DNA of 64,000 bases, taken from NCBI GenBank assembly GCA_019703815.1, contig AP023052.1, positions 2,728,001-2,792,000 on the forward strand, written 5' to 3'. The translations under genes and the position numbers were made by a program. Position 1 is the stretch's first letter, and each line of letters begins with the position of its first letter. A model generated the notes under the pieces. It was given only the letters and a program-made list of their open reading frames with translations, was not told the origin of the DNA and searched no databases. Below, piece by piece: positions 13,983 through 17,349 of the stretch. The stretch is from Thaumasiovibrio occultus (lineage in GTDB: Bacteria; Pseudomonadota; Gammaproteobacteria; Enterobacterales; Vibrionaceae).

Positions 13983-14435
13983 ATGAACTGGATCAATGCG
14001 CTACCCTTTTTCTTTGCTGGTTTAGTCCTTGGCATTTTGGTGACCAAGTTACTGACTAAGAAATCTAAACAACAAAAAGAGCTGGAAAACGACTTAAAAA
14101 GCGCGAAAGCAGAGCTAGATCAATACCGCCAAGAGCTCGGCGATCACTTTGTGCATAGTGAAAAACTGATGAGCAACATCATTAAGGATTGCAAAAAGCT
14201 CTACACCCAAATGGCAAAAACAAACAACGAGTTATTGCCGAACGTACCGGTTCAAGACAACACATTCACCCTGCTAGAAAACGAAAATGCAGCGGCGAAG
14301 AAAGAGCAAAAAGCAGAAACGGCACAAGACGAGATGACAGCAGAACAACCGAAAGATTACTCCAACGGTTCATCAGGCCTGTTATCAGGCAAAAGCTCTT
14401 TACCGCCACAGCCGGTAGAAGAGAAAGCCAACTAA
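13983..14435 (+). CDS. zapG: Z-ring associated protein ZapG (YhcB, DUF1043)
   Basis: ZapG (YhcB) is an inner-membrane protein that coordinates envelope growth and division; its biochemical activity is not settled. The 150-residue product has an N-terminal membrane helix (NALPFFFAGLVLGILVTKLL, residues 5-24), a coiled-coil region rich in Lys, Glu and Gln (about 28-85, including ELGDHFVHSEKLMSNI), and a low-complexity polar tail. Ribosome binding site AAGGAG precedes the ATG. It is followed by degQ, with a hairpin between them that can terminate zapG transcripts. Confidence 0.93.
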   Translation: MNWINALPFFFAGLVLGILVTKLLTKKSKQQKELENDLKSAKAELDQYRQELGDHFVHSEKLMSNIIKDCKKLYTQMAKTNNELLPNVPVQDNTFTLLENENAAAKKEQKAETAQDEMTAEQPKDYSNGSSGLLSGKSSLPPQPVEEKAN

Positions 14436-14480: not shown

Positions 14481-14509
14481 GGAACTAAACTCCAGTAAGA
14501 CAAGTCATA
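14481..14509 (+). promoter_or_regulatory. Candidate sigma-E-type promoter of degQ
   Basis: GGAACTA (14481-14487), a 17-base spacer and TCATA (14505-14509) resemble the sigma-E consensus GGAACTT and TCTAA. The -10 part has two mismatches. Known envelope proteases such as degP are sigma-E controlled in Escherichia coli. The predicted start is near 14516, which would leave a leader of about 27 nt. Confidence 0.4.
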
Positions 14510-14540
14510 GCATTGACGAGTGTGTTACTGGAGTTTTTTT
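14488..14540 (+). terminator. Hairpin with T run overlapping the degQ ribosome binding site
   Basis: AACTCCAGTAA (14488-14498) pairs perfectly over 11 bp with TTACTGGAGTT (14525-14535), followed by a T run to 14540. An inner GTCA/TGAC stem lies within the loop. The right arm contains the degQ Shine-Dalgarno (CTGGAG, 14528-14533), and the degQ ATG is at 14543. It can work as the zapG terminator and would also hide the degQ start site in any read-through RNA. Confidence 0.8.
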
Positions 14541-14542
14541 AT

Positions 14543-15889
14543 ATGAAAAGAAAACCGTTGCTTGCCTTGAGTGCGCTGGCACTCAGTCTTTCAACTTGTT
14601 TAGTCGCCGCCCCGTCCGCTTTCGCGACGCTTCCCTCTACGGTTAATGGTCAAACCCTCCCCAGCTTGGCACCCATGCTCGAGAGAGTGACCCCGGCCGT
14701 GGTGAATATCTTCGTCGAGGGCACACAGACTACGCGTCAACGACGCCATCCCTTGTTTAACGAACCGAACAACAATAGCCGTCGCGGCCGCACTTTCCTT
14801 AGCCTGGGATCGGGCGTAGTGATCGACGCCGATGAAGGTTACGTGATCACCAATCACCATGTCATTGACGGTGCCGACTCCATCCTGATCCAGCTGCACG
14901 ATGGTCGCGAATATGAAGCCGAGCTCATCGGCAGTGATGAAATGGCCGATATCGCTCTACTACAGGTACTTGAATATAGCGACTTAACCGAAGTAGCGAT
15001 TGCCAACTCCGACTCACTGCGAGTGGGCGATTTTGCGGTCGCGATTGGTAACCCGTTTGGCCTCGGACAAACCGTGACTTCCGGGATCATTTCTGCGCTA
15101 GGTCGAAGCGGCTTAAACCTCGACAACTACGAAAACTATATTCAAACTGACGCCGCCATTAATAGCGGCAACTCTGGTGGCGCGCTGGTCAATCTCAACG
15201 GCGAGCTAATTGGTATCAATAATGCTATCTATGGCCCTAATGGCGGCAATGTCGGGATAGGCTTTGCCATCCCCTCGAACATGGCAGCGAACTTGGTCAG
15301 CCAAATGCTAGAGTATGGCGAGGTACGCCGAGGGATGTTGGGCGTACAAGGGCGCGAGCTAACCTCTGAACTTGCCGAATCCTTTGGCTATGACATCAAC
15401 CAAGGCGCGTTTGTCGCTCAAGTCATTCCGGGAACACCGGCAGAAAAAGCCGGCTTGCAAGCCGGTGATGTGATTGTGGCCGTCAACGGTATTGAGGTGG
15501 ACTCCTTCAGCGAATTACGTGCCAAAATTGCCACTATTGGCGCAGAAAAAACGGTAAAGTTAGGGGTCTTACGTGATGGCGAATCCCTAACAGTCGCAGC
15601 GACACTCGTCGAAGCAGGCGCACGCGAAGTGGTGCTCGATGATATTCACCCAGCGTTTGAAGGGGCCGAGCTCGCCAACAGCAACAATGGCGTTGAAGTC
15701 ATGTCTGTCGCGCCTGATTCACCCGCGCAAATAGTGGGAATGGAAGAAGGCGACGTTATTATTGGGGTCCATCGCTTGGGTATCAAGAACATCGATGAGC
15801 TGCGCGAGGTGCTTAATAGGCTCTCAGATCGCACTATTGCCCTGAAAGTGAAGCGGGGGCATTCGTATCTGTACTTGATGATCCGCTAA
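14543..15889 (+). CDS. degQ: Periplasmic serine endoprotease DegQ/DegP family
   Basis: This is a periplasmic HtrA-type protease and chaperone that degrades misfolded envelope proteins. The start at 14543 gives 448 residues: a signal peptide ending near AFA (residue 28), a trypsin-like domain with triad His106 (TNHHV), Asp136 (ADIALL) and Ser211 (GNSGG), and two PDZ domains at about 255-345 and 355-445. The upstream in-frame start at 14513 would place the signal peptide internally. The short loop LA and the position before degS favour DegQ over DegP. A terminator follows at 15915. Confidence 0.94.
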   Translation: MKRKPLLALSALALSLSTCLVAAPSAFATLPSTVNGQTLPSLAPMLERVTPAVVNIFVEGTQTTRQRRHPLFNEPNNNSRRGRTFLSLGSGVVIDADEGYVITNHHVIDGADSILIQLHDGREYEAELIGSDEMADIALLQVLEYSDLTEVAIANSDSLRVGDFAVAIGNPFGLGQTVTSGIISALGRSGLNLDNYENYIQTDAAINSGNSGGALVNLNGELIGINNAIYGPNGGNVGIGFAIPSNMAANLVSQMLEYGEVRRGMLGVQGRELTSELAESFGYDINQGAFVAQVIPGTPAEKAGLQAGDVIVAVNGIEVDSFSELRAKIATIGAEKTVKLGVLRDGESLTVAATLVEAGAREVVLDDIHPAFEGAELANSNNGVEVMSVAPDSPAQIVGMEEGDVIIGVHRLGIKNIDELREVLNRLSDRTIALKVKRGHSYLYLMIR

Positions 15890-15914: not shown

Positions 15915-15943
15915 AAAGGCTCAGTACATACTGAGCCTTTTTT
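15915..15943 (+). terminator. Terminator of degQ
   Basis: AAAGGCTCAGTA (15915-15926) and TACTGAGCCTTT (15929-15940) form a near-continuous 12-bp stem followed by T residues, 26 bp past the degQ stop. It separates degQ from degS. Confidence 0.9.
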
Positions 15944-17320: not shown

Positions 17321-17349
17321 AAAAAAGGCCTGCAATGCAGGCCTTTTTC
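17321..17349. terminator. Bidirectional terminator between degS and murA
   Basis: AAAAAGGCCTGC pairs with GCAGGCCTTTTT around a three-base loop, with an A run on one side and a T run on the other. It lies between the convergent degS and murA genes and can serve both. Confidence 0.9.

Follow-up and report, generated by a model that had tools for sequence, protein, structure and literature searches.

How can degQ, which encodes a periplasmic serine protease, be made to depend on envelope stress when it lies behind the housekeeping gene zapG with no clear terminator between them? The question arises in the window, the whole 64-kb stretch of DNA analysed here, where an inverted repeat overlaps the degQ promoter and ends just before the gene. 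It was originally predicted to be a terminator hairpin that hides the degQ Shine-Dalgarno sequence.

The degQ promoter probably has a dual use. As DNA it is a sigma-E promoter, and in RNA that reads through from zapG it is an antisense arm that hides the degQ start. Support for this reading is provided by the complementarity itself, by conservation and covariation within the Vibrionaceae, by similar designs in other families, by the absence of such pairing at rpoE promoters, and by its frequent absence where a hairpin follows zapG.

In the proposed mechanism, read-through RNA from zapG, presumed to be present, would carry the spacer and -10 sequence as an antisense of the degQ translation start. 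It would fold back onto that start and so would not be translated. Because the left arm lies inside the promoter, RNA made by sigma-E would lack it; such RNA would begin in the hairpin loop and would be translatable. With read-through RNA silent and sigma-E RNA free, DegQ synthesis would be tied to envelope stress even without a clear terminator after zapG. The window genome's T run may, in addition, stop read-through transcription early, just before degQ. The idea that degQ translation would depend on the promoter used is thereby supported as a model, in which the sigma-E start and the effect on translation are predicted elements. What is conserved is the start-hiding stem rather than the T run, and its function is most likely to keep the zapG read-through RNA from being translated.

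The gap between zapG and degQ

The features of the locus are collected in Table 1. The upstream gene is presumably zapG; the name comes from the original prediction and from the familiar zapG/yhcB-degQ-degS gene order rather than from a family search.

Table 1. Features of the zapG-degQ region, in window coordinates.
Feature	Position	Strand	Basis
zapG (yhcB) coding sequence, presumed source of read-through RNA	13983..14435	+	150-aa ORF
sigma-E-type -35 element GGAACTA	14481..14487	+	sequence; equivalent promoter in relatives
Hairpin left arm AAACTCCAGTAA, in the -35/-10 spacer	14487..14498	+	12 perfect pairs
sigma-E-type -10 element TCATA	14505..14509	+	sequence; relatives with similar elements at equal spacing
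Predicted sigma-E transcription start zone, centre 14516	14513..14519	+	placed by distance from the -10 element
Hairpin right arm TTACTGGAGTTT, holding the degQ Shine-Dalgarno	14525..14536	+	perfect complement of AAACTCCAGTAA
degQ Shine-Dalgarno GGAG	14530..14533	+	sequence; 9 nt 5' of the ATG
Seven-T run at the stem end, possible added intrinsic terminator	14534..14540	+	sequence
degQ, DegP/DegQ-type periplasmic serine protease	14543..15889	+	ORF; named from the original prediction and named relatives

Promoters read by sigma-E have a GGAACTT-like -35 element and a TCNNA-like -10 element, separated by 16-17 nt. The degQ promoter agrees with this consensus, its spacer being 17 nt, and it is conserved. 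The left arm does lie in the promoter spacer, as predicted, and its first base (14487) is also the final base of the -35 element. The stem had been described as 11 perfect base pairs; it is real but one pair longer. Likewise, the seven T residues are present, but the gap between them and the ATG (14543-14545) is two bases rather than three. The Shine-Dalgarno sequence was correctly placed in the right arm.

The predicted fold of positions 14487-14536 has an energy of -24.4 kcal/mol and contains an inner helix inside the 26-nt loop. A 101-nt fold around the hairpin lies 3.5 sd below its shuffles, none of 200 of which equals it. The window contains nine perfect inverted repeats of 11 bp or more with loops of 3-45, so the repeat by itself is not rare; what is unlikely is its placement.

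No terminator was detected from zapG to the degQ promoter in the window genome, and a terminator scan restricted to loops of 3-8 did not list the degQ hairpin. When the stretch from the end of zapG to degQ is folded, a further hairpin is predicted upstream of the -35 element, after zapG and with no T run behind it. Ordinary-looking terminator hairpins are found at 15915-15940, after degQ, and at 17322-17348, between degS and murA.

Start hiding in the Vibrionaceae and in other families

Among 197 family genomes searched, 185 have a DegQ match at E <= 1e-140. Upstream regions of degQ were taken from 150 of these; the sample excludes the other matching genomes as well as the 12 that gave no match, eight of which belong to group g10. 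The window genus, g1, is represented by this genome (G000) and one other species (G001); g7 is taken as Photobacterium and g12 as Vibrio. A first contig scan with ZapG gave no match, nor did a search of plasmids.

A sigma-E-type promoter (score at least 11.5) is present in 146 of the 150 upstream regions, compared with 3 of 150 after shuffling. Sigma-E dependence of orthologues in other organisms is supported by published work: in Vibrio cholerae a degP-phoA reporter is reported to fall in an rpoE mutant (PMC8359247), and in V. harveyi DegQ is reported to rise in an rseBC mutant (PMC3285676). Searching the window's own genome with the promoter pattern gave 47 matches against 100 for the reversed control, so this search is uninformative for finding other sigma-E genes.

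Start hiding was assessed by thermodynamic RNA folding in 148 of the 150 genomes; G174 and G013 were left out for weak promoter scores, the G013 match also lying at a contig end. Three RNAs were folded for each genome: read-through RNA from 20 nt before the -35 element; predicted sigma-E RNA, beginning 11 nt past the T in the TC of the -10 element; and a read-through RNA whose promoter arm had been shuffled. The measure is the energy needed to open the region from the Shine-Dalgarno through about codon 5, ranked among 40 arm shuffles. The first statistics were confined to the Shine-Dalgarno and the leader upstream of it and largely missed Vibrio: among the 75 g12 genomes, the duplex reached 15/300 or better in one and the opening rank was 0-2 in 34. 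Once codon pairing had been seen in the folds, the test was repeated with the start region to codon 5. Group medians are little changed when the RNA is extended 150 nt upstream of the -35 element or the start is moved by a few bases.

In the window genome, no promoter-arm shuffle hides the start region equally (0/40) or gives an equal duplex (0/300). Its start region opens at a cost of 15.1 kcal/mol when the RNA reads through from zapG; the predicted sigma-E RNA needs 6.7 and arm-shuffled RNA needs 6.9 on average. Across the family, 113 of 148 genomes are at rank 0-2, against a chance expectation of about 11 (3 in 41), and 35 fall outside that range. Groups g4 and g8, each a single genome, are both at rank 0-2; the larger groups are given in Table 2.

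Table 2. Hiding of the degQ start by group, with median opening energies.
Group	Rank 0-2	All 40 shuffles beaten	Read-through/sigma-E/shuffled (kcal/mol)
g1	2/2	2/2	15.1/5.8/6.9
g7	31/42	31/42	14.5/4.8/7.1
g12	63/75	57/75	18.0/7.1/8.0
g10	6/6	6/6	20.7/7.7/8.6
g3	7/14		16.8/5.2/11.8
g9	2/7		15.1/7.0/11.0

What the arm covers differs between groups. The predicted hiding of the Shine-Dalgarno holds in g1 and much of Photobacterium, for example CTCCGGTTTACAAGT with ACTTGTTAAACCGGAG; in one clade of this set most of the promoter takes part, over about 20-25 nt with mismatches. In Vibrio and g10 the start codon and codons 2-5 lie under the arm, rather than the Shine-Dalgarno alone. There the spacer, commonly GCAAAGGTTTTT or a near variant, is the partner of codons 2-5 (AAAAAACCTTTGC), with further pairs possible between the -10 box and bases around the ATG.

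Conservation of the stem in relatives had been set beforehand as a check on the original prediction. Pairing does recur within the Vibrionaceae, by different sequences and with compensating changes. In Vibrio and g10, TCATAA occurs with TTATGATG, TCTTAAA with TTTAAGATG and TCGAA with TTCGATG; GGTTTTT occurs with AAAAACC, GGCTTTT with AAAAGCC and GGTTTCT with AGAAACC. Among 51 representatives, arms pair at -21.3 kcal/mol with their own partners and at -15.3 with swapped ones, a result reached in 0 of 20,000 permutations. The same count of 0/20,000 is obtained within g1+g7 (18 representatives) and within g12+g10+g8 (28), while the four representatives of g3+g9 give no significance (861/20,000). 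The own partner is in the best quarter for 37 of 51 representatives overall, for 9 of 18 in g1+g7 and for 16 of 28 in g12+g10+g8. Swapping arms without the codons shows nothing in Vibrio (4888/20,000).

Covariation is also seen in anchored columns of the Vibrio group. Over 57 unique arm pairs from 82 genomes, the best register has 64% standard pairs and the next 49%, and none of 5000 right-arm permutations reaches the best register; standard pairing of the third base of the -10 element with its partner before the ATG is limited to 34 of the 57. Shared ancestry is corrected for in neither the shuffles nor the permutations, yet common descent alone would not make each new arm complement the partner in its own genome. 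In the Vibrio group, CCTTTG or CCTTTA stands at codons 4-5 in 67 of the 70 genomes that pair and in 4 of the 12 that do not (Fisher p 2e-6), an association that is only suggestive because several Photobacterium genomes retain these codons yet pair the Shine-Dalgarno instead.

Promoters of rpoE served as a control. Among 26 loci, 18 have a sigma-E promoter and none of the 18 is at rank 0-2, although the match is imperfect because rpoE leaders are longer than most g1 and g7 degQ leaders. The other eight rpoE loci, all in g7 (L153, L155, L157, L159, L161, L165, L166 and L178), have no sigma-E-like promoter within 190 nt. Upstream regions of rpoE vary strongly among Photobacterium species.

Outside the Vibrionaceae, 26 degQ loci were tested from 57 matching genomes. 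Eighteen have the promoter and three are at rank 0-2, two of them in family f2 and the third with a difference between read-through and sigma-E RNA of only 1.3 kcal/mol. In the f2 genus, 7 of 8 among the loci listed are at rank 0-2, and the duplex test is significant in only one. Here AACTGTTTA pairs with TAAACAGTT in L288, and AACTATTTA with TAAATAGTT in L290 and L294; others have a wobble pair or a mismatch.

A further set of 80 named degQ loci contains 28 with the promoter. Five of its six Vibrionaceae are at rank 0-2, as are six of the 22 promoter loci from other families, of which only three differ by more than 5 kcal/mol. These are Pseudoalteromonas luteoviolacea (12.2 kcal/mol; CTCATAGTCTG with CAGACTATGAG), Pseudidiomarina sp. 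CB1 (11.3 kcal/mol) and a second Pseudoalteromonas (5.7 kcal/mol, duplex not significant). Pseudidiomarina marina is at rank 15, outside the range, and three Shewanella loci and one Aeromonas locus differ by at most 2.9 kcal/mol. Loci of the Enterobacteriaceae (Salmonella, E. albertii, Lelliottia, Citrobacter) are no valid negative, since they matched from about residue 23-28 and their starts are miscalled.

The Pseudoalteromonas group was then represented by 30 loci, of 40 genomes found. The promoter is present in 27, one of which (L321) has a miscalled start; rank 0 is reached in 14 and rank 0-2 in 22. The duplex is at 3/300 or better in nine, as with CATAGTCAGTAAAT and ATTTACTGACTATG. Pairing in Pseudoalteromonas involves the bases before and at the start codon.

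Other roles for the hairpin

Long stems in read-through RNA could be cut, and the stem might be a site for RNase III or other processing that parts zapG from degQ RNA, or might protect the zapG 3' end. For a mere processing site, pairing need not track the translation start. Yet that is what it does, through the Shine-Dalgarno in g1 and g7, the start codon and following codons in Vibrio and the bases before and at the start codon in Pseudoalteromonas, which makes such a site unlikely.

Slightly less probable is a simple transcription terminator of zapG placed very close to degQ, the alternative raised with the original prediction. In this genome the stem is followed by a run of U, as in an intrinsic terminator, and nothing else that would end zapG transcription was detected upstream of the promoter. 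The run is not conserved with the stem, however. Among 44 genomes of g1 and g7, only G000 has more than five T in the 8 nt past the Shine-Dalgarno; the sister species G001 lacks the seven-T run, as do the Photobacterium genomes examined, most of which keep a stem. The name terminator hairpin therefore suits the window genome's T run, a local feature, and not the start-hiding stem common to most of g1 and g7, and a plain terminator is rejected as the conserved function. In Vibrio, moreover, the paired stretch reaches degQ codon 5, an odd place for a terminator.

Terminators of zapG are found elsewhere. They were detected upstream of the promoter, the only region searched, in 14 genomes, mostly with weak pairing at degQ. 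The median difference between read-through and sigma-E RNA is 2.4 kcal/mol in these 14 and 10.4 in the 130 without a detected terminator (p 3e-6). The effect is also seen within g7+g1 (7 vs 37 genomes, p 0.009) and within g12+g10+g8 (7 vs 75, p 0.0006). An earlier, stricter detector used with the Shine-Dalgarno-only measure gave p 0.029 in g1+g7 and 0.57 in g12.

Counting any predicted upstream hairpin among the genomes of the tree set, 21 of 32 non-pairing genomes have one, against 12 of 113 pairing genomes (Fisher p 1.4e-9), the window genome being among the 12. The other 11 non-pairing genomes lack an upstream hairpin as well, nine of them in g3 and g9. On a ZapG tree, 10 independent pairs of genomes differ in the expected way about 3.0 times for upstream hairpins, in the opposite way 0.1 times and not at all 6.9 times (median p 0.25); for detected terminators the values are 2.0, 0.1 and 7.9 (median p 0.5). 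With only about three of ten pairs informative, a sign test on this tree cannot reach significance. The trade-off fits an insulating role for the start-hiding arm and does not prove one.

As a separate observation, six Vibrio-group loci (L089, L109, L126, L122, L118 and L098, in G082, G101, G125, G171, G191 and G189) have an altered zapG-degQ gap. Their sigma-E-like match lies about 110 nt or more before degQ, and a zapG terminator is detected in four of the six.

The inverted repeat could instead act as DNA, either as an operator for a protein or as part of an opposing promoter. A dyad around the -10 and start region is in the usual place for an operator. An operator is nevertheless very unlikely, given that the arm sequence differs among lineages and that the distance from the -10 element to the ATG ranges from 25 to 95 nt among non-Vibrio genomes with the promoter. 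An opposing sigma-E promoter is rejected: no sigma-E-like promoter occurs on the opposite strand in any of the 146 regions (three after shuffling). Least probable of all is an RNA thermometer or small-RNA-controlled leader on the sigma-E transcript, devices that usually take the form of start-hiding hairpins, because the predicted sigma-E transcript lacks one arm and its start region is about as open as that of arm-shuffled RNA.

Known systems and wider meaning

A similar arrangement is known from bacteriophage T4. Longer transcripts of its gene e are described as forming an inhibitory structure that lowers lysozyme synthesis 100-fold, whereas RNAs begun at late promoters just before the gene lack the 5' part and are translated well (PMC3014915). 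The start sites of soc, 49 and I-TevI are likewise described as hidden in long early RNA and free in late-promoter RNA (PMC3014915, PMC2988022).

Judged by its sequence features, the degQ arrangement would work like this class. In both, the promoter lies in the stretch encoding the left arm, and the right arm holds the Shine-Dalgarno, the start codon or both. At degQ, folding predicts a start that is paired in the long RNA, and the pairing is kept by compensating changes, with g3+g9 not significant. The silencing of long RNA and translation of short RNA known for gene e are, at degQ, predictions from sequence and folding. Gene e is a phage late gene, whereas degQ lies on the chromosome, serves envelope stress and has a sigma-E promoter; its design also occurs in several bacterial families, realised with differing sequences. 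A further difference concerns Vibrio and Pseudoalteromonas, whose promoter elements are themselves antisense to the start codon.

A second parallel is offered by transposase genes of the IS10 and IS50 kind, in which fold-back of read-through RNA protects against external promoters; a search of the openly licensed PubMed Central literature found no paper on this protection, and the excerpts of one paper that it listed deal with antisense RNAs and Hfq instead. There, too, an inverted repeat at the start of a gene guards against unwanted read-through. Those are mobile elements, however, and the purpose is silence, whereas the purpose at degQ would be dependence on one sigma factor.

The work on sigma-E-dependent degP and degQ in Vibrio cited above (PMC8359247, PMC3285676) concerns the orthologous gene and the same sigma factor; in the excerpts used here it deals with transcription or protein level, not with start-hiding read-through RNA. 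No description of the arrangement at degQ or degP was found among titles and abstract openings of the openly licensed PubMed Central literature. A note of caution for such predictions comes from pvuIIR, where a predicted start-hiding hairpin is reported to have no effect (PMC2997769).

What appears to be new is the use of this design in a chromosomal stress gene, as a sigma-factor switch instead of a phage timetable, in several families by different sequences. Apparently new, too, is a promoter with a -10 box that doubles as antisense to the start-codon region.

The balance tips slightly towards a broader reading, in which sigma-E promoters have repeatedly evolved with spacer and -10 box antisense to their own start codon, a "self-silencing read-through" that replaces a terminator. 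Codons 4-5 and the -10 box of Vibrio may be constrained by it, and Pseudoalteromonas, a Pseudidiomarina and one further family suggest generality for stress genes behind housekeeping genes. The dual use of the degQ promoter would itself show that two codes can share one promoter, the first for a sigma factor and the second to silence any RNA that runs through it. It would explain how a stress gene without a terminator before it, behind a housekeeping gene, stays stress-specific. Judging such genes by RNA level alone could then mislead, as some of their RNA would be silent. A testable reason is gained for the conserved spacer found in many Vibrio degQ promoters, and the complementarity rule provides a simple genome-wide search for further cases.

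Some degQ leaders contain additional hairpins. Long Vibrio leaders (e.g. L149 and L115, in G107 and G024) have a separate AGGTC...GACCT hairpin between the -10 element and the Shine-Dalgarno, near the predicted 5' end of the sigma-E RNA. In one Photobacterium clade (L013, L014) the loop contains a further hairpin, GCAGG...CCTGC. Both are possibly 5'-end stabilisers. A Vibrio clade (L123, L130 and L110, in G049, G061 and G157) has a strong GAGCCAAC...GTTGGCTC hairpin in the degQ leader. It lies 3' of the predicted sigma-E start and so would be present in both RNAs, as a different solution or an attenuator.
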